Source: Corynebacterium diphtheriae (lineage in GTDB: Bacteria; Actinomycetota; Actinomycetes; Mycobacteriales; Mycobacteriaceae). Taken from it: a stretch of DNA of 64,000 bases. Positions 1 through 63,520 of this stretch are shown in pieces. The notes beneath the pieces are model-generated. The model worked only from the letters and a program-made list of their open reading frames with translations. It did not search any database and was not told where the DNA came from. The position numbers and the translations under genes are program-made. Where the stretch lies: NCBI RefSeq assembly GCF_001457455.1, contig NZ_LN831026.1, positions 62,001 to 126,000 of the forward strand, written 5' to 3'. Numbering within the stretch: position 1 is the first letter of the stretch; the number at the start of each line of letters is the position of its first letter.

Positions 1-787
1 CGAAGGTGTCAACGACTACGGTGTGGCCGTCGATAAGCTCGGTGTGGAGGCTGCGATTTTCTTGGTCAGAGCCCAAGAAGGATGCGACGAAGTCATTGGC
101 GGGGTGGGCGAAAATATGGGCGGGGGAGCCCTGCTGGGCAATCTTGCCACCCTTTTCTAGCACCACGATGTGGTCGCCTACGCAGAAGGCCTCGTCGATG
201 TCGTGGGTGACCATGACCACCGTTTTATGCAGGCGGGATTGCAAGTCGATGAGTTGTTTTTGCAATGAGCGTCGCACGATGGGATCCACTGCGCCGAAGG
301 GCTCGTCCATGAGCAAGATGTCGGGGTCGGAGGCCAGCGCCCGCGCCACACCGACGCGTTGTTGTTGGCCGCCGGAGAGCTCGCCAGGGTAGCGGTTGGC
401 TAACGACGGCTCCAGGTCGACGTCGGCAAGCGCTTGTTTGGCACGCCGCTCAATTTCAGCTTTGGGCTCCTTGTTGAGCGTGGGAACCAAAGCAATGTTT
501 TGAATCACGGTGCGGTGTGGCAACAGCCCAGCGCTTTGAATCACATAGCCGATGGAACGTCGTAACTGCACCGGATCCGTCTCAGCGACATCCTTACCGC
601 GCACAATCACACGGCCCTCGGTGGGCTCGACCATGCGATTAATCATGCGCAACAGCGTGGTCTTACCGCTTCCCGACGACCCCACCAACACCGTCGTCTT
701 GCCCTTGGGGATAAACAGGCTGAAATCGGCCACGGCTTTTTCACCACGCTTGCCATAGCGCTTACTCACCGACTCAAACTCGATCAT
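1..787 (-). CDS. Osmoprotectant (glycine betaine/carnitine/choline) ABC transporter ATP-binding protein, 3' end outside window
   Basis: About 262 residues are visible; the C-terminus lies beyond the left edge. I translated this from the reverse strand: the start is the ATG at 787 (MIEFESVSKRYG). The Walker A loop GSSGSGKTT sits at residues 36-44, followed by a Q-loop (YVIQSAGLLPHRTV), the signature LSGGQQQRVGVARAL and Walker B ILLMDEPFGAVDP, then the H-loop MVTHDIDEA. The 'IQ' Q-loop and the 'FGAVDPIVRR' segment are typical of ProV/OpuCA-type ATPases, which energise import of compatible solutes. The gene ends before rskA but the two are probably not co-transcribed by design: the spacing is 9 bp, so read-through from sigK-rskA is possible. 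A matching ProX/OpuCC-type binding protein lies far away at 46.5 kb. The sub-family assignment is inference; ABC importer ATPase is secure. Confidence 0.85.
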   Translation of the reverse strand, partial: MIEFESVSKRYGKRGEKAVADFSLFIPKGKTTVLVGSSGSGKTTLLRMINRMVEPTEGRVIVRGKDVAETDPVQLRRSIGYVIQSAGLLPHRTVIQNIALVPTLNKEPKAEIERRAKQALADVDLEPSLANRYPGELSGGQQQRVGVARALASDPDILLMDEPFGAVDPIVRRSLQKQLIDLQSRLHKTVVMVTHDIDEAFCVGDHIVVLEKGGKIAQQGSPAHIFAHPANDFVASFLGSDQENRSLHTELIDGHTVVVDTF

Positions 788-796
788 GACGCCACG

Positions 797-1405
797 CTAC
801 ACTACGACCTCGGCAAGTACCTTTCCTCGCGGAGAAGTACTACCAGCCATAGGCTCCTCAGTAATCATCACCTTGTGGGTATCCCCCGGCAACGGCATCC
901 ACACATCAGTGTGTTCCTCCGGGCCAATAACACCAGCCGATTCCATCGAACCATCCGTCTTAACCGCCCACACTTGGGCGCCCATGCCGTGCCCAACCGC
1001 AGGAGCACCATCAACCATGGCACCACCAGAATTCATCGACTGCGACACCACAATGTCCAATGTGGCACCCATCGCCGACGCATCCGCCTGGCGTACATCA
1101 GAGGCAGCCAAAATGCTATCCATCTGAGCATGTGGATCCACAGCCTGCCACGGCTGATACACCGCTGTTACCACACCAGCAAGCAGCACTACCGACGCAG
1201 CCATCGACGCAAATACCAGTCCTGGGCGGCGGCGTCGCAACGGCGTAACCGTAGCCAACTGCTTCGGTTCTGGCTGTGATGGCTGCTCCTGTGGGGTAGC
1301 TGCGATGGCATCCATAACGCTGAGCTTCAACGCCGGTGGTGGTGTCAGCGGAGCAGGGGAAACATTGAGAGCATCTTCTATATCTCGGGGGAAGTTGTTA
1401 CTCAT
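797..1405 (-). CDS. rskA: Anti-sigma-K factor, RskA family
   Basis: 202 aa. The protein has a cytoplasmic N-terminal part, a single transmembrane segment at about residues 62-83 preceded by RRRRPG, and an extracytoplasmic domain ending in QVWAVKTDGSMESAGVIGP and PMAGSTSPRGKVLAEVVV. This matches the conserved anti-sigma-K domain, where QVW..D...AG and S..P.G recur. RskA proteins bind and silence their sigma factor until regulated proteolysis releases it. The ATG overlaps the end of sigK by 4 bp, so translation is coupled, as expected for a sigma/anti-sigma pair. The N-terminal region is short and proline-rich, without an obvious HxxxCxxC zinc anti-sigma motif. Confidence 0.88.
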   Translation of the reverse strand: MSNNFPRDIEDALNVSPAPLTPPPALKLSVMDAIAATPQEQPSQPEPKQLATVTPLRRRRPGLVFASMAASVVLLAGVVTAVYQPWQAVDPHAQMDSILAASDVRQADASAMGATLDIVVSQSMNSGGAMVDGAPAVGHGMGAQVWAVKTDGSMESAGVIGPEEHTDVWMPLPGDTHKVMITEEPMAGSTSPRGKVLAEVVV

Positions 1406-1986
1406 CGTGCTGCTCCCGTCGCAGATAAATGGGGGTGAACAATCTGGCGTAGTTTTTTCAAGCCGTCGCGTAGCCGTGTTTTCGCTGTTCCCAACGGAAC
1501 GCCCGTGGCCTCTGCAATCTCGCTATGAGTAAGACCTTGGAAATACGACAACATAATGGCCGTCCGGTGTGGCTCGCCAATGGAATCGACAAGCGCACGA
1601 ACCTGCTGCGACTCCAAAGACTCCACCGCCTCCTCCTCAGCGGCACACCATGTGGTGGCGCTATGGAGAAAATCAGTGGTATCGCGCTTTTTCGAAGCAA
1701 TATCAGAACGAACGCGATCAATAGCCCGCGACCGAGCTAACCGCAAAATCCACGACCGTGCCGAACCACGGGAGGCGTCGAAACTCGGCGCAGTGCGCCA
1801 CACCTCGACAAAAACCTCCTGGGTTACTTCCTCTGCCTGCGCACGATCATGAATCACCTGAGTGCTCAGGCCTAAAACATAGGGCGCGAGCTGGTCATAA
1901 AGCTGCGCGAAAGCCGCTTGGTCACCAGAAGCAACCGCGACGAGTAAATCATCGGGATCCATGACCAATAACTCTACAGCGGTCAC
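1402..1986 (-). CDS. sigK: ECF RNA polymerase sigma factor, SigK type
   Basis: 194 aa from the GTG at 1986; an internal ATG (MDPDDLL) at 1962 is an alternative start. Region 2 is visible as FAQLYDQLAPYVLGLSTQV and QAEEVTQEVFVEVWRTAPSF. Region 4 is visible as LSYFQGLTHSEIAEATGVP followed by GTAKTRLRDGLKKL. Assignment to SigK rests on the adjacent RskA-type anti-sigma gene and on the nearby divergent dipZ, which belongs to the SigK regulon in Mycobacterium tuberculosis (mpt83-dipZ-mpt70). The gene lies 26 bp downstream of a small lipoprotein gene on the same strand, suggesting a lipoprotein-sigK-rskA transcript that SigK could autoregulate. That regulation is inference. Confidence 0.88.
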   Translation of the reverse strand: MTAVELLVMDPDDLLVAVASGDQAAFAQLYDQLAPYVLGLSTQVIHDRAQAEEVTQEVFVEVWRTAPSFDASRGSARSWILRLARSRAIDRVRSDIASKKRDTTDFLHSATTWCAAEEEAVESLESQQVRALVDSIGEPHRTAIMLSYFQGLTHSEIAEATGVPLGTAKTRLRDGLKKLRQIVHPHLSATGAAR

Positions 1987-2012
1987 ACCGCATACAGCGA
2001 CCAGCGAAAAAT

Positions 2013-2258
2013 CTACTTCTGCATTGCGTCAGACTCGTGGGTCATCTTGTCATGATCCATCTTTCCGTCCATCTTGTCGTGCTCCATCTTGTCCGACTCC
2101 ATCATCTTGTCGGATTCAGGCGTCATCTTCTCGGAGCTCATCTGGGTGCTTGTCTCGGAAGTCATCTTCTCGGAGGTGCCGTTATCGCCGCAGGCTGCAA
2201 GGCCGAATGCGCCGGCTGCGAACATCATGGTCAGGGCTGCTTTGGTGGTCATACGCAT
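2013..2258 (-). CDS. Small Met/Asp/Lys/His-rich lipoprotein
   Basis: 81 aa from the ATG at 2258, chosen because AAGGAG lies 9 bp upstream; an in-frame upstream ATG has no such site. A signal peptide with lipobox FGLAAC is followed by a low-complexity mature part of about 60 residues built from repeats of the form (E/S/H)(S)DKM, for example ESDKMMESDKMEHDKMDGKM. Each repeat supplies Met plus Asp/His, so metal (copper-type) binding or a redox-sensitive methionine surface is possible; no family is recognised. It sits directly upstream of sigK and back-to-back with dipZ, the place that Mpt70/Mpt83 lipoproteins occupy functionally in mycobacteria, although it has no fasciclin domain. Confidence 0.75.
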   Translation of the reverse strand: MRMTTKAALTMMFAAGAFGLAACGDNGTSEKMTSETSTQMSSEKMTPESDKMMESDKMEHDKMDGKMDHDKMTHESDAMQK

Positions 2259-2340
2259 GAGTGAATACTCCTTATGTTTCACGATTACTTGCTTACTTGA
2301 AGGCTGACACCAGGAGTGCTCCCTGTGTGTCTCATAGGGG

Positions 2341-2358
2341 TATTCGGAGCTCCGATGG
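2341..2358 (-). promoter_or_regulatory. Palindrome and possible SigK-type promoter upstream of the lipoprotein-sigK-rskA genes
   Basis: The 12-bp perfect palindrome TCGGAGCTCCGA lies at 2344-2355. Read on the minus strand, the same block contains CCATCGG then CCGAATA separated by a few bases, resembling the CC-rich ECF promoter elements reported for SigK (recalled from memory, spacing not verified). It lies about 80 bp before the lipoprotein start and about 130 bp before the divergent dipZ start. Either an operator or an ECF promoter would fit. Confidence 0.4.
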
Positions 2359-2488
2359 GAAACGGATTGCGGTTGGGTGAAAAAAGTTTTTTCTCATTGT
2401 GAGCAATCCATAGCGGTGGGTGGCTCCGTATCAACTGACAGCAACGTTGAAAACCTAACCACCACTGCGATGAGGGAGTACGTAACAG

Positions 2489-4129
2489 ATGTTTGAATTG
2501 GCCACAATTGGATTAATCGGTGGCATTGTCACCGGTATATCCCCATGTATCTTGCCGGTTTTGCCGGTGGTTCTCGCCGTGTCGGTGGGCCGCAGACCAA
2601 CCCATGTGGTTGCTGGCCTAGCGCTCAGCTTTGCCACCATTACGCTGCTGGGCACTGTGATTTTAAGTTCTTTGGGTCTTCCTAAAGATGTATTGCGCTG
2701 GACGGGTGTCGGCCTGCTGGTGATCGTCGGTTTGAGCATGATGATCCCTAAGCTGGGTGAGCTGGTCGAGGAACCATTTAGTCGCATTCCGCGCCCAACT
2801 TTCTTGCAGCAAAAGGCCCGCGACAAGGGTGGCTTTATGATCGGCCTGGCCCTAGGTGCAGTGTATGTTCCCTGCGCAGGTCCTATTCTGGCTGCTATTA
2901 CCGTCGCCGGCGCGACGGGTGACATCGGTTGGCCAACGGTTGTGCTCACCGTGGCATTTGCCGTAGGTGCGAGCCTTCCGCTGCTGGTGTTTGCGCTGGC
3001 GGGTAACAAGATGGGTGAGAAGATCGACGCGATCCGTAAACACATGAAGCTTGTTGGTGCGGTTATTTTGGCGCTGGCGTTGGCTATGGCGTTGAACATT
3101 CCTGAGCGTGTGCAGCGTGCGATCCCCGACTGGACTGCTGGTGTGCAAAAGCAGATTAGTGAAAATGACAAGGTTCGTGGTGCTTTGAGTTCCGGTGGTG
3201 GCTCCTTGGCTGCGTGCCGCGACGCCGACCCATCGATGCTGCATGACTGCGGTGAGGCACCGGAGTTTGAGGGCCTGACTGGCTGGTTTAACACGGATAA
3301 GCCTGTGTCTACGCACAGCGGCCAGGTAACGCTTGTGGACTTTTGGGCCTACGCGTGCATCAACTGCCAGCGCGCGGGCGAGCACATCACCAAGCTTTAC
3401 GACGCCTACCGCGACGCAGGCCTGCAAGTCGTAGGCGTACACGCCCCCGAGTATGGCTTTGAGCACGAGCTCGCCAATGTGAAAGATGCTGCCAAACGCG
3501 AAGGCATTAACTATCCAGTGGCCCAGGACAACGACTTTGTCACATGGAAAAAGTACAACAACCGCTACTGGCCAGCTCGTTACCTGATTGACGCTCAGGG
3601 CAATGTGCGCCACATCCACGAAGGTGAGGGTGCATACAAGGAAACTGAACAACTGGTGCGCGAACTCCTGCGTGAAGCAAACCCCCAAGTATCACTGCCG
3701 GAGCCAGTAGAAAAGGGCGTCGAAAAGCACGATGCGCAACTCACTCAGCGTCGCAACCCCGAAACTTACCTTGGCTACGAGCGTGCCCGCTACTTCACCA
3801 ACAGCAACTACGGCCCAGGTGAGCGCACCCTCGAATTCAACGCACCAAAAGTCGGGCAATACACCCTCAGCGGAACCTGGGAGATTGCATCCGACCACAT
3901 CAACCCTGTTAAAGACGCTGCACTGTCCGTGAACATTCACGCAGCAACCGTGCAAACAGTTGTCTCCGGCACCGGAACCCTCGAAGTGACCTACCCCGAT
4001 GGCCACACCAAGGAATTTAAGGTGGCCGACGGCACCGTCAACGTGGTGGAACAAGACGAGCCTCTCGACGGAATCCTCACCGTGAAGCCATCCCAAGGCG
4101 TGAGCTTCTACTCGCTAACCTTCGGCTAA
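2489..4129 (+). CDS. dipZ: DipZ: CcdA-like membrane domain fused to thioredoxin-like domain
   Basis: 546 aa. Residues 1-210 are a CcdA/DsbD-type multi-pass domain with cysteines in TGISPCILPVLP and GAVYVPCAGPIL, which carry electrons across the membrane. An exported redoxin domain follows, with the active site FWAYACINCQRA near residue 290. The C-terminal 140 residues (starting LGYERARYF) form the beta-rich carbohydrate-binding-like module seen in mycobacterial DipZ. Length agrees with the family (about 550-690 aa). GAGGGAG precedes the ATG at a good distance. It is divergent from the lipoprotein-sigK-rskA genes, so it probably takes part in extracytoplasmic disulfide reduction under SigK control, as in the mpt83-dipZ-mpt70 cluster. 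Confidence 0.93.
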   Translation: MFELATIGLIGGIVTGISPCILPVLPVVLAVSVGRRPTHVVAGLALSFATITLLGTVILSSLGLPKDVLRWTGVGLLVIVGLSMMIPKLGELVEEPFSRIPRPTFLQQKARDKGGFMIGLALGAVYVPCAGPILAAITVAGATGDIGWPTVVLTVAFAVGASLPLLVFALAGNKMGEKIDAIRKHMKLVGAVILALALAMALNIPERVQRAIPDWTAGVQKQISENDKVRGALSSGGGSLAACRDADPSMLHDCGEAPEFEGLTGWFNTDKPVSTHSGQVTLVDFWAYACINCQRAGEHITKLYDAYRDAGLQVVGVHAPEYGFEHELANVKDAAKREGINYPVAQDNDFVTWKKYNNRYWPARYLIDAQGNVRHIHEGEGAYKETEQLVRELLREANPQVSLPEPVEKGVEKHDAQLTQRRNPETYLGYERARYFTNSNYGPGERTLEFNAPKVGQYTLSGTWEIASDHINPVKDAALSVNIHAATVQTVVSGTGTLEVTYPDGHTKEFKVADGTVNVVEQDEPLDGILTVKPSQGVSFYSLTFG

Positions 4130-4144
4130 GCCGCATATGAAAAA

Positions 4145-4198
4145 CGGCCAGATGAGTTGGGCACAATGTTGCTGTCCAACCCACCTAGCCGATTTTTA
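4145..4198 (+). terminator. Probable dipZ terminator
   Basis: A stem GTTGGGCA (4156-4163) pairs with TGTCCAAC (4173-4180), and outer CGGC/GCCG bases (4145-4148 and 4188-4191) can extend it. ATTTTTATT follows immediately. It lies 15 bp after the dipZ stop and abuts the stop of the convergent MerR gene. Confidence 0.5.
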
Positions 4199-4963
4199 TT
4201 GGGTGTGGCGTTGAGCGTTGCTCTGAATAGCCTTCTCCAACCAGACCGCCAAGCCTTTCGCGTACTTGTCATAATGCGCGGTAAAGCGCGGATCGGCAGT
4301 GTAGCCCTGAGCAATCAGCGCATGCTTGCTGTGTGAAACCGGAAACCATTGCGATAAACATGCCCGGTGTTCCTCTGCGAGTGCATGTGCGTCTGGGGAA
4401 TCAGGGGCCATACCCGATTCGAAAGCTTGGGCAAGGCGCTGGTCTAGCTTGTGCATGACCATCTGCCGAGCAGCAAAGTCGTCCTTGCCCAGCTGTGCTG
4501 CGCGCTGTTGGGAGATTGCCCAGTCTTCGGTGTCACCCCATCGCTCCTCGGCTTCCTTCTCCCACTTGCTCCATTCGCGGCCAAGGACCTTCGCGGTGTG
4601 GTCTGCAGAGAGCGGTTCGTTGTGGTTCATGGTGTCCTCCAAAAGTTGATGTACAGATTCGATCATGGAAGTCACACGATGTTTCCGCTGTTGCAGAAGT
4701 TCCAGCTGTCGTTGGAGATGGTCCGCGGGAGAGCTGTTGCTTTCGAGCATGTCGCGGATGGTTTTTAGCGGCATGCCAGTTTCGCGGTACAGCAAGACCT
4801 GGTAAATCTGGGCAACATCCTCCTCGCTGTAGAGGCGGTAATCGGCCCAACTGCGCCATTGGGGGCTGACTAGTCCGATGTCATCCCAATGGTGAAGAGT
4901 GCGCACGCTTACACCGACGAGGTCTGCTACTTCACCAACAGTGCGAAGATTGTGTTCTTCCAT
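4196..4963 (-). CDS. MerR-family regulator with TipAS-like effector domain
   Basis: 255 aa from the ATG at 4963 (MEEHNLRTVG); the ATG at 4975 is possible. The N-terminal MerR winged helix is complete: VGEVADLVGVSVRTLHHWDD, then SWADYRLYSEEDVAQIYQVL and TGMPLKTI. A coiled-coil region (LQRQLELLQQRKHRVTSMI) leads to a C-terminal all-helical TipAS/Mta-type domain containing DDFAARQ and LAEEHRACLSQWF. Members respond to thiopeptides or other amphiphilic drugs and usually activate their own promoter. A dyad just upstream supports autoregulation. No obvious efflux pump lies next to it, so its targets are unknown. Confidence 0.85.
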   Translation of the reverse strand: MEEHNLRTVGEVADLVGVSVRTLHHWDDIGLVSPQWRSWADYRLYSEEDVAQIYQVLLYRETGMPLKTIRDMLESNSSPADHLQRQLELLQQRKHRVTSMIESVHQLLEDTMNHNEPLSADHTAKVLGREWSKWEKEAEERWGDTEDWAISQQRAAQLGKDDFAARQMVMHKLDQRLAQAFESGMAPDSPDAHALAEEHRACLSQWFPVSHSKHALIAQGYTADPRFTAHYDKYAKGLAVWLEKAIQSNAQRHTQ

Positions 4964-4977
4964 GGGAGTTACCATTC

Positions 4978-5001
4978 ACCCTGACGCGGTGTGAGGGTCA
5001 A
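4978..5001 (-). promoter_or_regulatory. MerR-type operator-promoter of the TipA-like gene
   Basis: On the minus strand a TTGACC -35 (5001-4996) overlaps an inverted repeat, ACCCTCAC (4998-4991) and GTCAGGGT (4985-4978), with one mismatch. The dyad fills an unusually long spacer of about 19 bp before a weak -10, as expected for promoters twisted open by MerR proteins. The first base of the ATG at 4963 falls 7 bp after that -10, so the transcript may be leaderless. Confidence 0.6.
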
Positions 5002-5026
5002 GCGGGCCGATTTTTATTAGATTCGA

Positions 5027-5194
5027 CTACTGCTCGTCGATCTTCTTCTTTACGGCTTCTTGTACTTGGTCTACCTTGTCCGCGTACTTGCCTTCGGTTT
5101 TGGAGTCGATAAAGTCGCCGGCCTTATCCACGGCCTCCTTCACCTTGTCGGAGTTGTTGTTAATCAGGTCTTTAGCTTTGTTGAGAATATCCAT
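5027..5194 (-). CDS. Small antitoxin-like protein (Rv0909/MT0933 family)
   Basis: 55 aa. The protein is highly charged and helical: MDILNKAKDLINNNSDKVKE, then AVDKAGDFIDSKTEGKYADK and VDQVQEAVKKKIDEQ. The pattern K...A.DKAGDFID.KT.GKY.D.V..AQ is that of the actinobacterial MT0933-type antitoxin family. In this window no toxin gene lies next to it; the neighbours are a MerR regulator and an M20 peptidase. It could equally be a stand-alone stress protein of the same fold. Function as an antitoxin is inference from family resemblance only. Confidence 0.7.
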   Translation of the reverse strand: MDILNKAKDLINNNSDKVKEAVDKAGDFIDSKTEGKYADKVDQVQEAVKKKIDEQ

Positions 5195-5204
5195 GCAGGT
5201 CAGT

Positions 5205-6515
5205 CTACAGAAATTTCTCTACTAGCTGCTGGTATCCGGCAACAGTGAGGCGGAGATCTTCGAGGTGGAGGTACTCGTCATGGGAGTGGAGTTGGTCGTG
5301 AACATGCCCTAGGGTGCGGTCGGGTGCATGGACTGCAAATCCGTAGCCATTGCCACCCATTCGCCGTGCAAAGCGCAGGTCAGAACCACTGGGTGCGATC
5401 ATGGGGATCACGGTGGTGTCGGGGAAAGAGTCGTGGAGGACCTCGGCTAGTGTGCGGTAGAGCGGGGTGTCGGTGGGGGAGATGGTGGCGGGTTCGCAGA
5501 TGAGGTGTTCGATGGTGACGTGGGGTGCGAGATCACCGAGGGCTTGGGTGAGCAGGTCGTCCACGTAGGCGTCGTCGTGCCCTGGGAGAGTACGGATGTC
5601 CATGTCGAGCCAGGCGTGGCTGGGAAGGACGTTGATGGCTTGACCTGCGCGCAGCACGGTTTGGGCGATGGTGAGGTGGGAGATGGCGTGGCCGAAGGCT
5701 GCGAGGTCGCCGAGGTGTTCGTAGCCGGTGCCGTCTCGCAGGGCGGCGGTAGTGGTGGGGTCGAAACGGAAGGCGTCGATAAAGCCGCGCCAGATGTCGT
5801 CGGTGCTTACTTCGGGTTCAAAGGCGGCGATCCGGCGTGCTACTTCGCCGATCGTGGCGATGGCGCTGTCCTTGTTATAGGGGGCGGAGCCGTGGCCGGC
5901 GTCGCCATAGACGTGGAGGCGACGCTGGGCAGCGCCTTTTTCGCCGACGTAGATGATGGTGGAGTCGGAGCCATCACGGCCTGGGATGTGGGACCCGCCG
6001 GTTTCAGAGATACAGTTCTTCCAGCTCAACGCGTCGGGGTGGTGTTGGGCTAGCCAAGCTGCGCCGAGGCCACCGCGGGCTTCTTCGTCGGCAAGCGCTG
6101 CGAAGTAAAGAGTGCCGGCGTTGCCGCCAGTACGGGCAACATGTCGGGTGACGGCGGCCATGGTAGCGGTAATAAAGAGCATGTCGACGCTGCCGCGACC
6201 GTAGAGTTTGCCGTCGATGATGGTGGCGTCGAAAGGTGGGACGCTCCAATGTTGCGTATCGACGGGCACCACATCGGTGTGGCCTAAGAAGGTGAGGGGC
6301 TCGGCGGTAGGGTCGCTTCCGGTAGCAGTGACGACGAGGCTGACGCGCCCTGGGTGAGGTTCGAAGCGCTGGATGTTCACGGGACTCCCCGCGAAGAACT
6401 CTTCTAAAGTGGCCGCATTGCGTTCCTCGTGGCCGGAGTCTGGTGTGAGGTCGTTGACGCAGGCGTTGCGGATGAGTTCGGTGAGCAGGGCGAGGGTGTC
6501 GTCGTAAAGCGTCAT
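5205..6515 (-). CDS. M20-family zinc metallopeptidase / deacylase
   Basis: 436 aa from the ATG at 6515 (MTLYDDTLALL). The frame extends to an ATG at 6551 that would overlap the bioB promoter, so I prefer 6515. Metal-site motifs are clear: FLGHTDVVPVD, then LYGRGSVDM, then AALADEEARGG. A dimerisation (lid) domain is followed by PSGSDLRFARRMGG. M20 enzymes hydrolyse amide bonds in small substrates such as N-acyl amino acids, succinyl-DAP or dipeptides; the substrate cannot be read here. The gene is divergent from bioB and unrelated in pathway. Confidence 0.85.
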   Translation of the reverse strand: MTLYDDTLALLTELIRNACVNDLTPDSGHEERNAATLEEFFAGSPVNIQRFEPHPGRVSLVVTATGSDPTAEPLTFLGHTDVVPVDTQHWSVPPFDATIIDGKLYGRGSVDMLFITATMAAVTRHVARTGGNAGTLYFAALADEEARGGLGAAWLAQHHPDALSWKNCISETGGSHIPGRDGSDSTIIYVGEKGAAQRRLHVYGDAGHGSAPYNKDSAIATIGEVARRIAAFEPEVSTDDIWRGFIDAFRFDPTTTAALRDGTGYEHLGDLAAFGHAISHLTIAQTVLRAGQAINVLPSHAWLDMDIRTLPGHDDAYVDDLLTQALGDLAPHVTIEHLICEPATISPTDTPLYRTLAEVLHDSFPDTTVIPMIAPSGSDLRFARRMGGNGYGFAVHAPDRTLGHVHDQLHSHDEYLHLEDLRLTVAGYQQLVEKFL

Positions 6516-6544
6516 GTGTACCACATTAAGGGCAATGGGGGTGA

Positions 6545-6573: not shown

Positions 6574-6628
6574 GATTATCGCTAGGATTTTTGGACATCT
6601 ACCAATTGCCACAACATGGGAGCATCAC

Positions 6629-7884: not shown

Positions 7885-7894
7885 TGGGCGCACC

Positions 7895-8040
7895 ACCCCC
7901 GTTCACCCCCGAAAAAGACGGCACTTCACACCAAATCTGCTCAAACGGCCGGTTTGGAAGCGATTTGGTGTGAAGTTCCGAGAAAAATCCTTCGAAATAC
8001 CCCCGTTTGGTGGCTCTTCCGGTTTTAGGGTGCATTGATT
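7895..8040. repeat. Dispersed hairpin repeat, copy A
   Basis: A long hairpin has arms ACTTCACACCAAATC (7923-7937) and GATTTGGTGTGAAGT (7962-7976), perfect over 15 bp, with a 24-nt loop containing CAAACGGCCGGTTTG. It is flanked on one side by GTTCACCCCCGAAAAAGACG and on the other by AAATACCCCCGTTTGGTGGC and then an IS-end-like GGCTCTTCCGG. Two further copies lie at 19993-20133 and 20273-20393, in the opposite orientation. It lies 10 bp after bsaP and may also terminate that transcript. Confidence 0.85.
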
Positions 8041-19992: not shown

Positions 19993-20133
19993 AATGCACT
20001 CTACAACCGGAAGAGCCACCATTCGGGGGTATTTCGAAGGATTTTTCTCCGAACTTCACACCAAATCGCTTCCAAACCGGCCGTTTGACTGGATTTGGTG
20101 TGAAGTGCCGTCTTTTCGGGGGTGAACGGGGGT
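19993..20133. repeat. Dispersed hairpin repeat, copy B
   Basis: Arms ACTTCACACCAAATC (20053-20067) and GATTTGGTGTGAAGT (20092-20106). It is in reverse orientation to copy A and carries the same flanks, from an IS-end-like CCGGAAGAGCCACCATT to CGGGGGTGAACGGGGG. Confidence 0.85.
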
Positions 20134-20272: not shown

Positions 20273-20393
20273 GCCACCATTCGGGGGTATTTCGAGGCAT
20301 TTTGCACAGAACTTCACACCAAATCGCTTCCAAACCGGCCGTTTGGCTGGATTTGGTGTGAAGTGCCGTCTTTTTCGGGGGTGAGCGGGGGTG
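20273..20393. repeat. Dispersed hairpin repeat, copy C
   Basis: Contains GAACTTCACACCAAATCGC and GGATTTGGTGTGAAGTGCC around the same GGCCG loop. It is parallel to copy B and about 140 bp from it, inside the same inverted-repeat element. Its outer end (GAGCCACCATTCGGGGGTA) is shared with copy B. Confidence 0.85.
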
Positions 20394-24056: not shown

Positions 24057-24150
24057 AGTGAGTAGTTCGTGCCAAAACTTTTTGAGGCTCGCAGCGTTTC
24101 CGCAGGTCGGAGATATAAGAAAAGATGCAATTTGGCACGAACTACTCACT
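24057..24150 (+). repeat. 94-bp palindromic 3' element, copy 1
   Basis: Perfect 20-bp inverted ends AGTGAGTAGTTCGTGCCAAA (24057-24076) and its complement (24131-24150). The interior reads ACTTTTT...CGCAGCGTTTCCGCAGGTCGGAGATATAA in the + direction. It begins directly after the PepSY stop codon, in the gene's orientation. It would fold into a long RNA hairpin. Other copies: 47990, 57789, 58773. Confidence 0.9.
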
Positions 24151-47989: not shown

Positions 47990-48083
47990 AGTGAGTAGTT
48001 CGTGCCAAATTAAATCTTTTCTTATATCTCCGACCTGCGGAAACGCTGCGGAGGTGAAAAAGTTTTGGCACGAACTACTCACT
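47990..48083 (-). repeat. 94-bp palindromic 3' element, copy 2
   Basis: Same 20-bp perfect ends; the interior is in minus orientation, reading away from embC. It lies 18 bp after the embC stop on that gene's strand. Identical length to copies 1 and 3. Confidence 0.9.
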
Positions 48084-56326: not shown

Positions 56327-56384
56327 GCTGCCACTTTACTGTGAATGGGGGTGCATGTCATGGGGGTTCGCTAGTGTGTGTCCT

Positions 56385-56789
56385 ATGACGAACCAAGCAC
56401 GTATTTGCCGTCTTTCCGCCGCGTTGTCTGTCGGCCTGATTACCGCGTTGCCGGATTATGTTGCCAACAAGGCTGTTCGCTGGCTGCTTAACTCGCTGAT
56501 TGCGGGCGCTGGTGTTGGTGTGGTGGCGTATGTGAACAAGCAGGACGAGGACCCCACGAACGACCTTGACGTTGTTGCCCGCGAGCTTATCGACGACTCC
56601 CAGTTCGGACCCGCAGCCACTTGGGGGCTGTTCCTCGCCGTTGTGGTGCTGCTGTTCGTGCAGCGTATCGACGCCAAACTCACCGCCGTGGTCACCGGCT
56701 GGTTGCGTCGTCGCGGCGTGCGCGCCCCACACACTGTGCTCGGTGTTCTTGCTGCGGCACTGACCTATGCGGAAGTATCAAAGTCATGA
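56385..56789 (+). CDS. Small membrane protein of unknown function
   Basis: 134 aa from the ATG at 56385 (MTNQARICRLSAALSVGLIT). Hydrophobic stretches at residues about 34-50 (LNSLIAGAGVGVVAYV) and about 77-95 (WGLFLAVVVLLFVQRI) with an acidic linker (NKQDEDPTNDLDVVARELID). The end overlaps the next gene as ATGA. No family recognised. Position between dprE1 and gtrA suggests, without proving, a cell-envelope link. Confidence 0.65.
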   Translation: MTNQARICRLSAALSVGLITALPDYVANKAVRWLLNSLIAGAGVGVVAYVNKQDEDPTNDLDVVARELIDDSQFGPAATWGLFLAVVVLLFVQRIDAKLTAVVTGWLRRRGVRAPHTVLGVLAAALTYAEVSKS

Positions 56790-57334: not shown

Positions 57335-57345
57335 GATTCCCGCCC

Positions 57346-57765
57346 GTGACTACAACCAACTCGGCCGCACCACAAAGCGTGACATCCCAAGGCATTAAGT
57401 TCATCATCTCCGGTGGTATCTCCGCAGTCGTGGACTTGGGCCTTACCTACATCTGCCAGATCCTCTTCGGCTTCTCCGCCGCAGGTGGCCGCACGATTGG
57501 CTTCATCTTTGGCACGCTGACCGCCTATTTGATTAACCGCCGTTGGACTTTCCAAGCGGAGGCCTCCACCAAGCGTTTCATCCAGGTGGCTGTGCTGTAC
57601 ACGATCACCTACTTTGTGAACGTGGGCGGCCACGCTTTGCTGTTTGGCTTGTTCACCTCACCTGGTCTGGGGGAACGCGTGGCTTTGGTGATCGCCTTTG
57701 TGATTTCTCAAGGTGTTGCCACGGTGATCAACTTCTTCGTGCAGCGCTGGTTCATTTTCAAGTAG
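57346..57765 (+). CDS. GtrA-family membrane protein (Rv3789-like)
   Basis: 139 aa from the GTG at 57346. Four membrane helices with the family blocks QGIKFIISGGISAVVDLGLT, GFIFGTLTAYLINRRWTFQ, NVGGHALLFGLF and FVISQGVATVINFFVQRWFI. In M. tuberculosis the homologue Rv3789 adjoins dprE1 and has been linked to decaprenyl-phospho-arabinose export or AftA anchoring. Here it is near dprE1 but on the opposite strand, separated by three small genes. Confidence 0.88.
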   Translation: MTTTNSAAPQSVTSQGIKFIISGGISAVVDLGLTYICQILFGFSAAGGRTIGFIFGTLTAYLINRRWTFQAEASTKRFIQVAVLYTITYFVNVGGHALLFGLFTSPGLGERVALVIAFVISQGVATVINFFVQRWFIFK

Positions 57766-57788
57766 CCTGTGCTGCCCTGTTGGGCCTC

Positions 57789-57882
57789 AGTGAGTAGTTC
57801 GTGCCAAAACTTTTTCGCCTTCGCAGCGTTTCCGCAGGTCGAAGATATAAAAAATAATTTAATTTGGCACGAACTACTCACT
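57789..57882 (+). repeat. 94-bp palindromic 3' element, copy 3
   Basis: Perfect 20-bp ends; begins 24 bp after the gtrA stop, in gtrA orientation. The start codon of the next frameshifted gene lies 21 bp past its right end. Confidence 0.9.
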
Positions 57883-57902
57883 CGGCTACTCTCCCACGGA
57901 GT

Positions 57903-58753
57903 ATGGGGGAAATAACACAGAAAATACCGCACGCTACTCTCACCCGAAAGCTAGAGAGCGGGGAAATTATCCGTGTGACTCACGGACTGTACTGGCAGGG
58001 GGACGTCAACGTAGATGAGCTGGCGGCAGCCCTGTGCCGGCGGGGTTTGTGCTTACGGGTGTCACAGAACTGGAGCTTTTGGCTCGGCAGCCGCTCACGC
58101 TGCCGTTGCATGTTGTTGCTAATCGCAGGGTGAAATCTACTGAGTATGTGGTGATACATCGCAGTTCTGTGCGCAAGTATGCGCGTGTGGCAGATGTGCT
58201 GATTGAGCTGCCGGTTTATGCGATGCGGTGGCTTGGTAGAAGGCAGGCGATTCGGCTGGCGGAGATTGCTTATGCTGGGCGTGAGGGGCGTGCGCGGTTG
58301 GAGCGCCATGCGCAGGGTGCAGTTCCTGTGCGGGTTCGGGAGATTGTGCAGGCTTCGGTTATTGGTGCTGATAGTCCGCCTGAGCGTGATCTGGTGCGTG
58401 CGTTGCGATCTGCTGGTGTGGAGTGTGAGAGCAATGTGCGGGTGGGGGATTATCGTTGGGATATTCGTATTTGTGGCAGTGCGGTGCTTATTGAGGTGGA
58501 TGGCTATGCGTATCACAATGCCGAAAATCGTGAGACTTTTCGTTTAGATCGCTGGAAGGCTAACGACGCCACCCTGCGTGGTTATTTGGTTCTGCGGTAT
58601 TCGGCTGTCTGCGTGCGGGAGTCTGTGGATGTGATTGTTGATCAGGTTGTTCAGGCGGTGCAGTGTGCGCCGAAGCAGCTTCGTGATGTTGATGAGGCGA
58701 GGTGTTGGCATCGCGGAGCGTGGAAGTGGATGCCTGGATTGGCGTGGCTCTAA
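57903..58753 (+). pseudogene. AbiEi-antitoxin-domain / DUF559 endonuclease-like gene with frameshift
   Basis: From the ATG at 57903, IPHATLTRKLESGEIIRVTH and GLYWQGDVNVDELAAALC give an AbiEi-type N-terminal winged helix. At about 58032-58036 the frame must shift back one base to continue PAGFVLTGVTELELLARQPL. The rest contains ARLERHAQGAVPVRVREIVQ and a C-terminal DUF559/Vsr-like nuclease core: DYRWDIRICGSAVLIEVDGY, AYHNAENRETFRLDRWKAND and GYLVLRYSA. The D...E-x-D...D pattern of the nuclease is intact. A 280-aa protein would be restored by one base. The locus is bracketed by two copies of the 94-bp element. Confidence 0.72.
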
Positions 58754-58772
58754 CCACTGTTGATACGTCACC

Positions 58773-58864
58773 GTGAGTAGTTCGTGCCAAAACTTTTTCG
58801 CCTCCGCAGCGTTTCCGCAGGTCGGAGATATAAGAAACGATTTAATTTGGCACGAACTACTCAC
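58773..58864 (+). repeat. 92-bp palindromic 3' element, copy 4
   Basis: Ends are the same sequence shortened by one base each (GTGAG...CTCAC). It starts 20 bp after the preceding gene's stop, in that gene's orientation, and lies 23 bp from the stop of the convergent glfT1, so it can serve both. Confidence 0.9.
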
Positions 58865-58886
58865 ACCAGAGCCAAGCGCCCTAGAA

Positions 58887-59804
58887 CTAGGGGCGTTCGA
58901 ATTTCTCGGAGCGCCCGAGTTGGTGGAGTTTGAACCATTCGAGGAATCCGCGGGGGTCGCGTCGCTGGATGAGGAAGAACCAGGCGAAGCGGGCGTATTC
59001 CTGTGGGAGGAGGCGTCGCATGCCGGGTTGGTTCATGAGGTAGCCGCGGTTGCGGTAGGTGAAGTAGCGTTTGGCGTCGCTGGCGGGGTATTGGGTGTGC
59101 ATGCGTCCGCCGAGGATGGGTTTGAATTCGTCAGAGCCGTCGGGGTGGAGGTATGCGGTGGTGAGGCAGGTGCCAAAGTTGAGTCCGGAGCGTACGAGGC
59201 GGCGGTGGTATTCGACTTCGTCGCCGCGGATGAATAGTCGCAGGTCAGGAACACCGATGCGTTCCATGGCGGCGGCGGAGATGAGTGCGCCGTTGAAGAG
59301 GGATGCGATGCCGGGTAGGAGGGTGTCGCTGGGGTTGTTGGGGTCGATGAGTTCGCTGCGGTAGCGTCGCCATTCGAGTCCGCGGCGTAGGGGGAATGCG
59401 AGTCGGTTGGGGTCGTCCATGTTGCAGACCACGGGGGAGACTTCGTCGAGTTGGTGGGTGACGGCTGCGTCGATAAGCGTGGCGAGTACTTGGGGCCCTT
59501 CGGGGCGGCCGTCATCGTCGGCACACCAGATGGCGTCGGCTCCGAGGGCGAGGGCGGTGAGGAATCCGTAGGCGAATCCGCCGGCGCCACCGAGGTTGGT
59601 GTGCGATGGCAGGTAGATGCCTCGGTCGCCGGCGACGCTGTGGAGGAGGTCGCGTACTGCGTCTTCGCAGCCGTTGTCGACCACGATGATCCACTTCACT
59701 GGGTGTGTTTGCGCGGCTACCACCTCGAGGGAGGCGCGGAGGAGCTCGACGCGCTTGTGGGTCACGATGACTGCGGCGATGTTATCTGAAGTGGAAAGCG
59801 GCAT
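58887..59804 (-). CDS. glfT1: Galactofuranosyltransferase GlfT1
   Basis: 305 aa GT2-type transferase. Opening NIAAVIVTHKRVELLRASLE, WIIVVDNGCEDAVRDLL, NLGGAGGFAYGFLTALALGA, the DXD-type AIWCADDDGRPEGPQVL, and the acceptor-side IRGDEVEYHRRLVRSG with the catalytic Asp/Glu. It matches Rv3782-type GlfT1, which adds the first galactofuranose residues to the rhamnosyl linker of arabinogalactan. It has no close operon partner here; dprE1-embC are 3-10 kb away on the same strand. Confidence 0.93.
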   Translation of the reverse strand: MPLSTSDNIAAVIVTHKRVELLRASLEVVAAQTHPVKWIIVVDNGCEDAVRDLLHSVAGDRGIYLPSHTNLGGAGGFAYGFLTALALGADAIWCADDDGRPEGPQVLATLIDAAVTHQLDEVSPVVCNMDDPNRLAFPLRRGLEWRRYRSELIDPNNPSDTLLPGIASLFNGALISAAAMERIGVPDLRLFIRGDEVEYHRRLVRSGLNFGTCLTTAYLHPDGSDEFKPILGGRMHTQYPASDAKRYFTYRNRGYLMNQPGMRRLLPQEYARFAWFFLIQRRDPRGFLEWFKLHQLGRSEKFERP

Positions 59805-59906
59805 GGTCCTTATTGTGGCACATTGTGAGGTTTGCCCTACAACGACACAAACAGTGAGGTCAGGATAAGTGAGGATAGTGCAGGCTTACCCCATTTGTGT
59901 GTTGTT

Positions 59907-59925
59907 TTAGCTTAGCCCTAGCTAA
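59907..59925 (+). promoter_or_regulatory. DtxR box upstream of iutA
   Basis: TTAGCTTAGCCCTAGCTAA matches the DtxR consensus at 15 of 19 positions and is itself nearly symmetric. It lies 53 bp before the iutA start, in the promoter zone. In C. diphtheriae the iut locus is reported as iron-regulated through DtxR (recalled, not looked up). Confidence 0.8.
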
Positions 59926-59977
59926 TTTGCTTCTTATCGCAATAAGATTCAGTTTCATGACTAAGGAAACTTCTCGC

Positions 59978-60943
59978 ATGTCACGACGCGGCTTCATTCG
60001 CACTGCTGCCGCTTCCGTGGCCGCATTGGCACTTTCTGGCAGCCTCGTTGCATGTTCGACGGACTCAGCTAGCACCTCCGCTACCACCAGTGCAGCTAAC
60101 AAAGCACTGACGGTGTTTGCTACCACTGGCTACATTGGCGACGCAGTAAAGAACATCGCCCCTGATGCCGACGTAACCATCATGGTGGGTCCTGGCGGCG
60201 ATCCGCACACCTATCAGCCCACTACACAGGACATTTCTAAGATTGAGTCCTCTGATGTGGTGCTATGGTCTGGTCTGCACATGGAGGCCAAGATGTTGGA
60301 TCAGCTGAAGGCGCAGGGGGATCGTCAGGCGGCTGTTGCTGAGGCGATCCCTGAGGACAAGCGTTTGGATTGGCCAGAGCCGGGCGATAATGGCGAGAAG
60401 TTGTATGACCCCCACGTGTGGAATTCCACGGAGAACTGGAAGTACGTGGTGGATGCGATTGCGAAGAAGCTGTCTGAGGTAGATAAGGATAATGCCGCTA
60501 CCTATAAGGACAATGCTGAGAAGTACAAGAAGGAGATCGACGAGACTGCTGCGTATGTGAAGGAGCAGATCGATCAGATTCCGGAGCAGAAGCGTATTTT
60601 GATCACTGGTCATGATGCGTTTAGCTACTTTGGCAAGCAGTTTGGTGTGGAGATTCACGCTACGGACTTTGTGACCTCCGAGTCGGAGATGTCGCCAGCG
60701 GAGCTTGCTGAGTTGGGCAAGTTTATTGCTGAGAAGAAGATCCCTACGATTTTCCAGGACAATTTGGCTAATCCGCAGGCTATTAACTCTTTGAAGGAGA
60801 CTGTGAAGGCTAAGGGGTGGAACGTGGAGATTTCCGATAAGGAGCTTTACGCTGATTCCTTGGGTGAGTCTGCACCGACGGATACTTACCTTGGTGTTTT
60901 GAAGTACAACGCTGATGCTATCCGCGAGGCTTTGGCTAAGTAA
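59978..60943 (+). CDS. iutA: Metal ABC transporter substrate-binding lipoprotein IutA
   Basis: 321 aa from the ATG at 59978, preceded by AAGGAAA at 8 bp; an ATG at 59957 has no site. Signal RRGFIRTAAAS with twin-Arg-like RR and lipobox SLVACST. Cluster 9 (ZnuA/MntA) metal ligands: GPGGDPHTYQPT (His), YDPHVWNSTEN (His), LITGHDAFSYFGKQFG (His/Asp) and FQDNLANPQ (Asp). The His-rich loop of zinc-specific ZnuA is absent. First gene of iutABCD, under the DtxR box. Confidence 0.92.
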   Translation: MSRRGFIRTAAASVAALALSGSLVACSTDSASTSATTSAANKALTVFATTGYIGDAVKNIAPDADVTIMVGPGGDPHTYQPTTQDISKIESSDVVLWSGLHMEAKMLDQLKAQGDRQAAVAEAIPEDKRLDWPEPGDNGEKLYDPHVWNSTENWKYVVDAIAKKLSEVDKDNAATYKDNAEKYKKEIDETAAYVKEQIDQIPEQKRILITGHDAFSYFGKQFGVEIHATDFVTSESEMSPAELAELGKFIAEKKIPTIFQDNLANPQAINSLKETVKAKGWNVEISDKELYADSLGESAPTDTYLGVLKYNADAIREALAK

Positions 60944-60960
60944 TTAGCAAATTTTCTCGA

Positions 60961-61004
60961 CCGCGCTACAACACGTTAATGTGCATGTTTTCGGTGTAGC
61001 GCGG
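60961..61004 (+). promoter_or_regulatory. Hairpin between iutA and iutB
   Basis: CCGCGCTACA (60961-60970) pairs with TGTAGCGCGG (60995-61004), ten perfect pairs and a 24-nt loop. There is only a weak T-rich tail (TTCTTG). It may lower expression of iutBCD relative to the binding protein or protect the iutA mRNA end. Confidence 0.6.
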
Positions 61005-61041
61005 TTCTTGTCGCACATCTGACTATTTTTTAAGAGGCGTT

Positions 61042-61776
61042 ATGTCTGTCCCTTTGCACGCGCTGCCACCGGCTTTGGTGATGCGCAATGTGTCTGCGCG
61101 TTATGGTTCTACTGTTGCTGTGGAACGCGCTAGTGTTGTGGTTCCTGCTGGCACGGTGATGGGTTTTATTGGCCCTAATGGTGCGGGTAAGTCCTCGTTG
61201 ATTAAGGCTGCGATTGATTTGATTGATCGCGATGGCGAGGTGGAGTTTTTCGGCGAGAGTTTGGCTGCGTGTCGTAACAGGGTGGGCTATATGCCGCAGA
61301 GTGCGGATGTGGATTGGGATTATCCGATCACGGTTCGCCAGGTGGTGCAGATGGGGCTGTTTCCACGGGTGGGGTGGTTTAAGCGGTTGTCGGGGGAGCA
61401 TAAGGAGCTTGTCGACGCTTCCCTGGCGCGTGTTGGTATCGCGGATTTGGCTAAGCGTCATATTTCTGAGCTGTCGGGTGGGCAGCGTCGTCGTGTGTTT
61501 GTGGCGCGTATTCTTGCCCAGCAGCCGGATATTTATTTGTTGGATGAGCCGTTTGCTGGTGTGGATGCTGCCAGTGAGAAGGTGATTCGTGGTGTGTTGC
61601 ATGAGCTGCGGGATGCGGGCAAGTCGGTGGTGATTGTGCACCATGATTTGTCTACTGTTGAGGAGCTGTGTGACCACGTGACGATTATTAATCGTGGGGT
61701 GTTGGCTTCTGGTCCGGTGTCTGAGGTGTTTACTCGTGAGACGGTGAACAAGGCGTTTGGTTTGGGGCTGCTATGA
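61042..61776 (+). CDS. iutB: Metal ABC transporter ATP-binding protein IutB
   Basis: 244 aa. Walker A GPNGAGKSS, Q-loop GYMPQSADVDWDYP (the DVDWDYP stretch is typical of Mn/Zn transporters of the MntB/TroB group), signature LSGGQRRRVFVARIL, Walker B IYLLDEPFAGVDAAS and H-loop VIVHHDLSTVEELC. AAGAGG precedes the ATG. It overlaps iutC by 4 bp. Confidence 0.93.
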   Translation: MSVPLHALPPALVMRNVSARYGSTVAVERASVVVPAGTVMGFIGPNGAGKSSLIKAAIDLIDRDGEVEFFGESLAACRNRVGYMPQSADVDWDYPITVRQVVQMGLFPRVGWFKRLSGEHKELVDASLARVGIADLAKRHISELSGGQRRRVFVARILAQQPDIYLLDEPFAGVDAASEKVIRGVLHELRDAGKSVVIVHHDLSTVEELCDHVTIINRGVLASGPVSEVFTRETVNKAFGLGLL

Positions 61777-62672
61777 GCCTGATTGAGTTTTTGTCGGAGT
61801 TTTCTTTCCGTCGTGTGGTGCTGGGAACCATGTTGATTGGTTTGTGTTCGGGTGCCATGGGAACGTTTTTGTATTTGCGCAGGCAGTCGATGATGAGTGA
61901 TGTGATTGGGCACTCTGCGACTCCTGGTGTGATGGGTTCGTTTTTGTTGTTTTCTACGGTTCCGGTGTTGGCGGGGTCGCAGTTGCTGGCGCAGTGGGGG
62001 ATTGATGCGCGTTCGATGCCGGTGATTACGGTGGGGGCGTTGATTACGGGGTTGGCGTCGGCGTTGTTGGCGGACAAGGTGGCTGCGACGACGCGCATTG
62101 GTATTGATGCCACTATGGCGGTGATGTTGTCGCTGTTTTTGGGCGGCGGCCTGATTTTGCTGCAGATCATTCAGCGTGGGCGTTATAAGGGCAAGGGCGG
62201 CATTGATGAGTTGATGTTTGGTAATGCTGCCACGCTTACTAATTTGGATGTGCGCACGTTGGCTGTGGTGTCTGTGGTGATTTTGGGTGTGATTGTGGCG
62301 TTGTGGCGGCCGTTTACGCTGTTGGTGTTTGATCCGGTGTTGGCGCGGATGTCGGGGATGCCGCGGTGGATTAATGGTGTGTTGTTTGTGATTATCACGC
62401 TGGGCATGGTGATTGGTGTGAAGGCGGTGGGCCTGATCTTGATGATTGCGTTTGCTGTGTTCCCGCCGGCTGCTGCGCGTCAGTGGTCGCGTACGGCGTT
62501 GCAGATGGTGGTTGCGTCGGCTCTGATTGGTGGGGCGTCGGCGGTGTTGGGCACCTATATTTCGATTTCGGTGGGTAAGGTGCCCACGGGCCCGGTGATT
62601 GTGTTGGTGCTGGCTGCGACTGTGCTGGTGTCTATGGTGTTGTCGCCGCGTAGGAGTGGGGTGTCGGCATGA
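61773..62672 (+). CDS. iutC: Metal ABC transporter permease IutC
   Basis: 299 aa, ABC-3 family with about eight membrane helices. Blocks: LCSGAMGTFLYLRRQSMMSD, VIGHSATPGVMGSFLL, GGIDELMFGNAATLT and VKAVGLILMIAFAVFPPAAA. The 'RRQSMMSDxxxHS' element near the N-terminus is the family mark. ATGA overlaps link it to iutB and iutD, giving a coupled iutBCD set. Confidence 0.92.
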   Translation: MSLIEFLSEFSFRRVVLGTMLIGLCSGAMGTFLYLRRQSMMSDVIGHSATPGVMGSFLLFSTVPVLAGSQLLAQWGIDARSMPVITVGALITGLASALLADKVAATTRIGIDATMAVMLSLFLGGGLILLQIIQRGRYKGKGGIDELMFGNAATLTNLDVRTLAVVSVVILGVIVALWRPFTLLVFDPVLARMSGMPRWINGVLFVIITLGMVIGVKAVGLILMIAFAVFPPAAARQWSRTALQMVVASALIGGASAVLGTYISISVGKVPTGPVIVLVLAATVLVSMVLSPRRSGVSA

Positions 62673-63520
62673 CGTTTGCGGTGTCTGTTTCGTTGTTGGC
62701 GCTGGTGGTGGCGCTTACCGCTGCGATTCCTGGGGTGGTGTTGGTGTTGCGTCGACAAGCGATGCTTTCCGACGCCCTCTCCCACGCCGTTTTGCCGGGC
62801 ATTGCGGTGGGCGCGTTGTGGACTACTAATCCGAATTCGCCTATTTTGTTGATCGGTGCGACGTTGAGTGGTGTGCTGGTCATGGCGCTCACGGAGTGGG
62901 TGCGTGGCCGCAAGCGGGTGACTGAGGATAGTGCTACGGGCCTGATTTTCCCCGCGTTTTTCGCTATCGGTGTGATTCTGATTTCCACGAAGTTTAATCG
63001 CTCGTCGATTTCTGAGCACACGGTGCTCGTGGGTGATCTCAACATTTCTGCCATGCAGCATCTGGTGGTGGGAACCATTGATTTTGGCCCGAAGAGTGCG
63101 TGGATTATTGGCGCGGTAGGCTTGCTCACGTTGGTCCTGTTGTTGGTGGCTAAGCGGCCGCTGGCGATTTCGACTTTCGATCCCGTTTTTGCGCGCACGG
63201 TGGGTATTCGCACGCGCTTGATTAACTATCTGGTGATGACGATGGTGTCGCTGACCATCGTGGTGGTCTTCGATGCTGCTGGCGCGGTGTTGGCTGTTGC
63301 GTTGATGATTGTGCCTGCTGCGACCGCATTGATGATCGCTTCTTCGGAAGGTGCCATGTTGTTGGTCACGTTGGTTGTTGCTGCGGTGAGTTCTCAGGCG
63401 GGGTTCTGGGTGGCGTATCGTCTCGACGCGGCGACCTCGCCGACGATGGCGTTTGTCGACGGCCTCATCTTCCTCGCGGTGTGGGGTATTATTCGTGCGC
63501 GTCGCCGGCTGCGGCGTTGA
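62669..63520 (+). CDS. iutD: Metal ABC transporter permease IutD
   Basis: 283 aa, second ABC-3 permease. RRQAMLSDALSHAVLPGIAV repeats the family mark, followed by LVGDLNISAMQHLVVGT and FDAAGAVLAVALMIVPAATA. With IutC it should form a heterodimeric channel. The ORF ends 84 bp before iutE, which has its own promoter. Confidence 0.92.
   Translation: MTFAVSVSLLALVVALTAAIPGVVLVLRRQAMLSDALSHAVLPGIAVGALWTTNPNSPILLIGATLSGVLVMALTEWVRGRKRVTEDSATGLIFPAFFAIGVILISTKFNRSSISEHTVLVGDLNISAMQHLVVGTIDFGPKSAWIIGAVGLLTLVLLLVAKRPLAISTFDPVFARTVGIRTRLINYLVMTMVSLTIVVVFDAAGAVLAVALMIVPAATALMIASSEGAMLLVTLVVAAVSSQAGFWVAYRLDAATSPTMAFVDGLIFLAVWGIIRARRRLRR

Follow-up and report, generated by a model that had tools for sequence, protein, structure and literature searches.

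A short DNA word, CGTCGNNAMGC, occurs in great excess throughout the genome of Corynebacterium diphtheriae. Taken with a one-letter variant carried by a clade of related species it has the form CRTCGNNAMGC, and we lean towards interpreting it as the DNA uptake sequence (DUS) of Corynebacterium for natural transformation. On our best reading, it would be the first uptake sequence outside the Neisseriaceae and Pasteurellaceae. The word was recognised in a stretch of 64,000 bp (hereafter the window), positions 62,001-126,000 of NZ_LN831026.1, which is the single 2,463,666 bp contig of the 2.46 Mb genome.

A preliminary description of the window had listed 19 copies of an 11-base core, CGTCGAYAAGC, ten forward and nine reverse, and all of these were present on direct sequence search. 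Thirteen of the coordinates were correct, whereas six forward starts had been placed one base too low (Table 1). Only 0.09 copies were expected, and 19 copies were reached in none of 100 dinucleotide shuffles of the window. Under an order-5 Markov model, the two core 11-mers were seen in the window 9 times (CGTCGACAAGC, 0.27 expected) and 10 times (CGTCGATAAGC, 0.43 expected). The placement of the sites inside genes was also borne out, as 18 of the 19 lie within greedy open reading frame (ORF) calls and the remaining one, at 56585, within the listed ORFs. Genome-wide, the core was present 329 times (179 + and 150 -), whereas the reversed pattern, our control for genome-wide word counts, had 11 copies.

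The form of the motif was defined by counting every single-base substitution of the two core 11-mers in a 464 kb sample of the source genome, consisting of the window and 20 evenly placed 20 kb stretches. The cores had 45 and 29 copies in this sample, and a single substitution at positions 1-5, 8, 10 or 11 left 0-3. At position 6 A was preferred, position 7 accepted any base, and position 9 was A or C. The invariant portion is CGTCG..A[A/C]GC, in which the two middle bases are loosely constrained; specificity is sharp, with eight invariant positions and a ninth that is A or C. Since single substitutions nearly abolish the word, its reader appears to be exacting. A 12-mer with a preceding G had earlier been taken as the unit; this G is indeed present at 11 of the 19 cores, but the substitution counts identify CGTCGNNAMGC as the actual unit. 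G at position -2 is favoured in several genomes, most markedly in those with dialect 2 (38 of 42 sites in G006; see below) but also in class-1 G137 (15 of 18), and this upstream preference has a period of three that resembles codon structure and largely follows the codon period. No shared repeat was found when the flanks of the sites were compared. A regular-expression scan for CGTCGNNAMGC located 50 sites in the window between 28 and 62774 (20 + and 30 -). The 464 kb sample contained 266 copies and the whole genome 1,347 (651 + and 696 -; 123 for the reversed pattern), or about one per 1.8 kb. The reverse complement of the core, GCTTRTCGACG, resembles a DnaA box, differing at two of nine bases from the actinobacterial form TTRTCCACA.

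The excess is independent of codon usage. We permuted synonymous codons among the ORF calls, which cover 88% of the 464 kb sample, while keeping the proteins and codon counts. CGTCGNNAMGC was seen 250 times in coding DNA, versus 15.0 in 30 such shuffles (standard deviation 3.8, maximum 21). This codon-aware expectation, named beforehand as the refuting comparison, was exceeded by the motif. Of 266 sites, 249 were wholly inside called ORFs. All six frame and strand combinations were used, with one antisense frame accounting for 145 of the 250 coding sites, and 83 sites were sense and 167 antisense relative to the gene. Mixed frames were likewise confirmed among the cores of the window. The proposal that selection acts on DNA and not on protein is supported by these mixed frames, the use of both strands, the approximately 17-fold excess over the codon shuffle and a dialect that follows ancestry (see below). 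A function at the level of RNA was rejected because sites occur in both orientations relative to genes.

The enrichment first seen in this window recurs in other Corynebacterium. Among 201 genomes of the genus, the core was present in at least 100 copies in 130, in 41-78 copies in nine and in at most 25 copies in 51, the other 11 being strong carriers of a second dialect. About 50 of the 201 were without either word, and two of the 51 low-core genomes (G073 and G084) were moderately enriched for the dialect-2 word. Summed over all 201 genomes, the core occurred 24,662 times forward and 24,590 times reverse. From the count tables a non-random set of 80 genomes was hand-picked; it comprised 30 genomes of class 1 (CGTCG word), 11 of dialect 2 (CATCG word) and 39 termed off. 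CGTCGNNAMGC was present 441-2,685 times in the class-1 genomes and 22-286 times in the off genomes. In sampled DNA from seven off genomes, counts were within the range of their own codon-shuffle nulls, with G163 at the upper end (9 versus 3.8 expected, shuffle maximum 11). Five genomes (G062, G041, G120, G129 and G132) had 163-286 copies against 76-106 for the reversed pattern, about 2 to 3.4 times and far under class 1; this moderate excess is possibly a decaying remnant after loss. The pattern CGTCGNNAAGC was counted 1,875 times in a metagenome-assembled genome of Corynebacterium sp. and 56 times in one of C. urealyticum. Two C. glutamicum phages had 1 and 0 copies, counts that point neither way.

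In a survey of 249 genomes of the order, no other genus was strongly enriched for the 11-mer, and the only three strong genomes belonged to Corynebacterium. Spread of the motif to other genera was rejected on these counts, apart from a weaker excess in one other genus (f15/g20), where six genomes of 6-7 Mb had 46-124 copies. In four genomes of g20 (G439, G446, G397 and G409), CGTCGAYAAGC was 3-11 times the reversed control. Of eight genomes of this genus, G439 had more CGTCGNNAAGC than the reversed control (368 versus 260) and the other seven had as many or fewer. Counts of 102 and 103 in two low relatives show the reversed control to be a poor baseline there, so that a smaller excess remains in that genus.

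Two genomes that seemed empty of the core, G006 and G111, were rich in CATCGNNAAGC, a one-letter variant (CATCG), with 38 and 49 copies per 100 kb sample versus about 3 expected. This dialect-2 word was present in 625-1,337 copies in 11 of the 201 genomes, and at 213 and 159 copies in two further, moderate genomes. Codon shuffles gave 143 versus 16.8 for CATCG and 12 versus 8.4 for CGTCG in G006, and 48 versus 3.5 and 8 versus 3.0, respectively, in G111; in G000 the corresponding figures were 9 versus 12.3 for CATCG and 250 versus 15.0 for CGTCG. Each sampled motif-bearing genome was enriched for its own dialect word. We placed the dialects on a tree of one protein, TadA, from 39 genomes including 10 of the 11 with dialect 2; its root is uncertain. 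Dialect 2 needs one change on this tree (support 79/82), class 1 needs seven, and the off state needs seven, at least four of which are forced by well-supported branches. A simple history would be that class 1 came first, followed by a single switch to dialect 2 and several losses. The dialects follow the phylogeny in this tree and retain the inner core, with G143 mixed. In the class-1 genome G099 (L064-L068), T is favoured over A at position 6 (CGTCGTNAAGC), a finer sub-dialect.

The word is also kept between relatives. This was seen in one pair, the sibling dialect-2 species G006 and G105, for which 200 kb each was compared, giving 170,432 aligned bases at 93.7% identity. Word sites were shared at 88 of 105, versus 342 of 746 for 389 permuted patterns, and divergence was 2.5% at the fixed positions of the word and 5.5% in the flanks. 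The word was enriched in aligned DNA and sparse in unaligned DNA: G006 had 98 sites in 173 kb aligned (0.57 per kb) versus 7 in 26.6 kb unaligned (0.26 per kb), and G105 had 101 in 174 kb (0.58 per kb) versus 3 in 25.5 kb (0.12 per kb), some of the unaligned stretches being merely edges of the fetched sequence.

Genes for transformation are present throughout the 80-genome set. ComEC, the TadA-type ATPase and DprA each had a match in all 80 genomes; in 80, 79 and 73 genomes, respectively, the match passed the curated cut-off. Of 30 com loci, 29 had ComEA next to ComEC and only that of the off genome G172 gave no ComEA match. CpaE, TadA, TadB, TadC, Flp, TadE and TadF were all found in each of the 20 tad loci read (14 on, 6 off). 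In another actinobacterium, Micrococcus luteus, Flp/Tad pili are described as required for transformation, and comEA and comEC are present (PMC6370729). Transformation machinery like that of Micrococcus is thus widespread in the genus. As this machinery is common to motif-free species it does not explain the on/off state, and ComEC, the TadA-type ATPase, DprA and ComEA were rejected as the switch on account of their near-universal presence in both classes. In many off genomes the ComEC frame looked longer; this seems to be lineage-linked and includes upstream sequence, and we draw no conclusion from it. None of the gene families tested tracks the on/off state, and the missing piece is a specificity factor.

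Abundance, sharpness, strand symmetry, clade-distributed one-letter dialects, upkeep in shared DNA and patchy absence are together the feature set described for the DUS of Neisseriaceae and the uptake signal sequence (USS) of Pasteurellaceae (PMC3630211, PMC12616744), and for this reason we favour an uptake sequence. From these features we infer sequence-specific uptake that involves a receptor, a pilus and a drive mechanism. A putative cell-surface receptor, probably part of the Tad/Flp pilus reaching across the outer mycolate membrane, would prefer double-stranded DNA bearing the word. ComEA and ComEC would then import one strand, which DprA and RecA would recombine. Word-bearing fragments would more often gain entry and take the place of homologous DNA, and such biased transformation would spread the word and maintain it across the core genome. 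A single change in receptor specificity may have produced the CATCG clade, and lineages that lost the receptor specificity, or never had it, would show no excess. Corynebacteria have an outer membrane barrier, as do the DUS and USS families. This barrier, together with the frequent recombination reported for C. diphtheriae, with a recombination-to-mutation ratio (r/m) of 5 (PMC7694903), also favours selection at uptake.

Several observations weigh against an uptake sequence, and the chief weaknesses are that no report of natural transformation in Corynebacterium was found among the matches listed from the open-licence literature, that the search for a receptor found none and that off species retain the machinery. 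ComEC, the TadA ATPase and DprA were matched in all 39 off genomes too, and in motif-bearing G001 the ComEC match is split across two frames. The receptor of an uptake sequence is usually a minor pilin. No receptor candidate was found when Flp, TadE, TadF and ComEA were compared by eye, which revealed no obvious class difference. The TadE family PF07811 did not help, matching 24 of 80 genomes at E <=0.1 and none above the cut-off, in both classes. The dialects are not fully exclusive, since G143 carries 1,337 copies of CATCGNNAAGC and 449 of CGTCGNNAMGC, and in about a dozen class-1 genomes CATCGNNAAGC reaches 118-159 copies versus the usual 30-90. DUS and USS copies frequently form inverted-repeat terminators, although this is not required of them. 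The sites found here do not: gaps below 60 bp were seen in 5 of 246 cases, three of these being convergent (+-) pairs 9-17 bp apart, and this rarity of close convergent pairs in the sample argues against organisation as terminators. Site spacing is close to random, not even. There were fewer sites near the terminus (43 in 120 kb versus 223 in 344 kb), where the sampled stretches have a lower G+C (0.475-0.535); uptake does not predict this lower density unless base composition or accessory DNA accounts for it.

Comparison with known systems shows both likeness and difference. Like the Neisseriaceae DUS, which is read by the minor pilin ComP, the Corynebacterium word is short and non-palindromic, occurs in very many copies on both strands, and has clade-specific one-letter dialects around an invariant core. 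It differs in that its host is an actinobacterium whose pilus genes are of the Tad/Flp kind and not those of type IV pili, and in being bipartite (CRTCG-NN-AMGC) and outside terminator inverted repeats; it is a candidate uptake word with a putative receptor. With the Pasteurellaceae USS, for which PpdA/ComN is the receptor candidate, it shares a core accompanied by less constrained positions, a small number of variants and an abundance of the same order. There is no sequence relation to USS, and no AT-rich flanking tracts were seen at the Corynebacterium sites, only the upstream G preferences. This motif was unreported as a genomic element of Corynebacterium among the matches listed from the open-licence literature, and in the accessible part of a paper on spaced motifs Corynebacterium is mentioned for CRISPR (clustered regularly interspaced short palindromic repeats) only (PMC5217627). 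The genome of Corynebacterium ulcerans is described as containing architecture imparting octamers, G(A/T/C)GGGGGA and (T/C)GGGGGAG, which resemble FtsK-orienting polar sequences (KOPS) (PMC3164646). These octamers are of other sequence and over-represented on the leading strand, whereas our word is strand-symmetric, and the strong leading-strand bias towards dif that characterises KOPS was not found for it.

We considered whether the word could instead be a recombination hotspot of the Chi type, read in single strands by a helicase-nuclease of the AdnAB class that switches from degradation to recombination, and regard this as unlikely. Chi of RecBCD or AddAB is abundant and intragenic, like our word, and is tied to recombination. 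Chi sites are also core-enriched and have species variants, features shared with the word, and PF12705 (PDDEXK_1) was matched in 80 of 80 genomes, some frames being of helicase-nuclease size (about 1,000-1,200 codons). These frames would correspond to AdnAB, and an AdnAB-type reader is possible. However, PF12705 is present in on and off genomes alike, and eight fixed bases plus an A/C around a 2 bp gap exceed the length of described Chi sites, which are shorter and not bipartite. Chi sites are usually leading-strand biased, and no leading-strand excess was found in sampled stretches of three genomes (pooled, 211 leading and 253 lagging, z = -1.95). RecC (PF04257) had no match in any of the 80 genomes; the E. 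coli control was recovered by the same search. Of the possibilities first put forward, namely a DUS, a Chi-like site or another protein-binding site, the DUS fits best, Chi of the RecBCD type is contradicted by the results for RecC and strand, and some other genome-wide protein-binding site is a less likely possibility.

To a similar degree doubtful is a chromosome-wide site for an organising protein acting in nucleoid occlusion, condensation or segregation. SlmA and Noc sites thin out around the terminus; the word is less dense there but not absent, and the lower G+C of the sampled terminus stretches confounds this comparison and may explain part of the drop. The word is strand-symmetric and mostly intragenic. 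A dimeric regulator would be expected to bind a palindrome, whereas the word is asymmetric. Its density is far higher than that of Noc and SlmA sites, and a core role in the cell cycle is hard to reconcile with its absence from about 50 of the 201 genomes.

Less probable still is that the word marks self DNA for a defence system attacking word-less DNA, or is a by-product of restriction-modification. The on/off pattern is patchy over lineages on the TadA tree, as for defence genes, and in the dialect-2 clade a Dam-family adenine methylase and a type II restriction enzyme (DUF6996/6997/7226) adjoin comEA-comEC-holA. This pair was seen in all six dialect-2 com loci read; only the G006 copies are annotated (Table 1), with matching genes in L290-L294 and L296. 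As an on/off determinant the pair was rejected for mismatch, since it is present in motif-free G014 and in none of ten class-1 com loci read. Among members of that clade, GATC was measured in G006, G111 and G014 and is under-represented in all three (0.63-0.68), and likewise in class-1 G099 (0.63). Restriction targets are usually avoided in genomes, not enriched. Finally, biased use of codons or amino acids and a family of repeats can both be dismissed as the source of the count: the frames are uneven, but the shuffle preserving proteins and codon usage gives 15 versus 250, motif-free congeners stay inside their own nulls, and the flanks share no repeat.

Other repeats were noted in the same DNA (Table 1). 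Inverted repeats of about 50 bp (TTCACACCAAAT...ATTTGGTGTGAA) with conserved flanks had seven further copies in the sampled stretches L023, L025 and L026, and may be dispersed elements of small size, either mobile or acting as terminators. Elements of about 90 bp with inverted ends (TGAGTAGTTCGTGCCAAA...TTTGGCACGAACTACTCA) resemble miniature inverted-repeat transposable elements. Possible CRISPR arrays were seen in samples of G152 and G120 (L099-L106), as repeats with 51 and 23 copies.

Table 1. Positions of word sites and other features (window coordinates unless a locus is named)
Feature	Strand	Positions	Remark
CGTCGAYAAGC cores (10)	+	28, 13869, 26050, 29298, 30407, 32045, 43246, 47185, 59468, 62750	starts; sequence search; 13869, 29298, 32045, 43246, 59468 and 62750 are the corrected values
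CGTCGAYAAGC cores (9)	-	7710, 11625, 14230, 21944, 33511, 45443, 51298, 56585, 61407	low coordinates; sequence search
CGTCGNNAMGC beyond cores	+	421, 3718, 6086, 6500, 15723, 22726, 23437, 31649, 47920, 54331	regular-expression scan
CGTCGNNAMGC beyond cores	-	668, 3394, 6254, 10152, 10972, 16144, 17897, 18220, 18292, 18403, 23273, 25010, 39959, 41115, 42634, 42754, 46769, 50180, 51789, 56663, 62764	regular-expression scan
Tightest site pair	62750 + / 62764 -	62750..62774	convergent; starts 14 bp apart
Inverted repeats, ~50 bp		7925-7974, 20055-20104, 20313-20362	
Elements with inverted ends, ~90 bp		24059-24148, 47992-48081, 57791-57880, 58774-58863	
Methylase and restriction enzyme genes		L289:2728-4921	

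We judge it about evenly balanced whether the word represents a third, independently evolved uptake-sequence system, the first in a Gram-positive lineage, with its own dialects, a Tad/Flp pilus across a mycolate outer membrane and a receptor unrelated to ComP or PpdA, that shapes species boundaries. A 2025 paper still describes Neisseriaceae and Pasteurellaceae as the sole families known to select self DNA at uptake (PMC12616744). If the word is an uptake sequence, natural competence is predicted in Corynebacterium, and the high rate of recombination reported for C. diphtheriae could be explained mechanistically. The genus whose species boundaries would be shaped in this way includes major human and industrial species. 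Self-selective transformation would then have arisen in a third, distant, outer-membraned lineage, which suggests that the outer membrane itself may favour self-selection.

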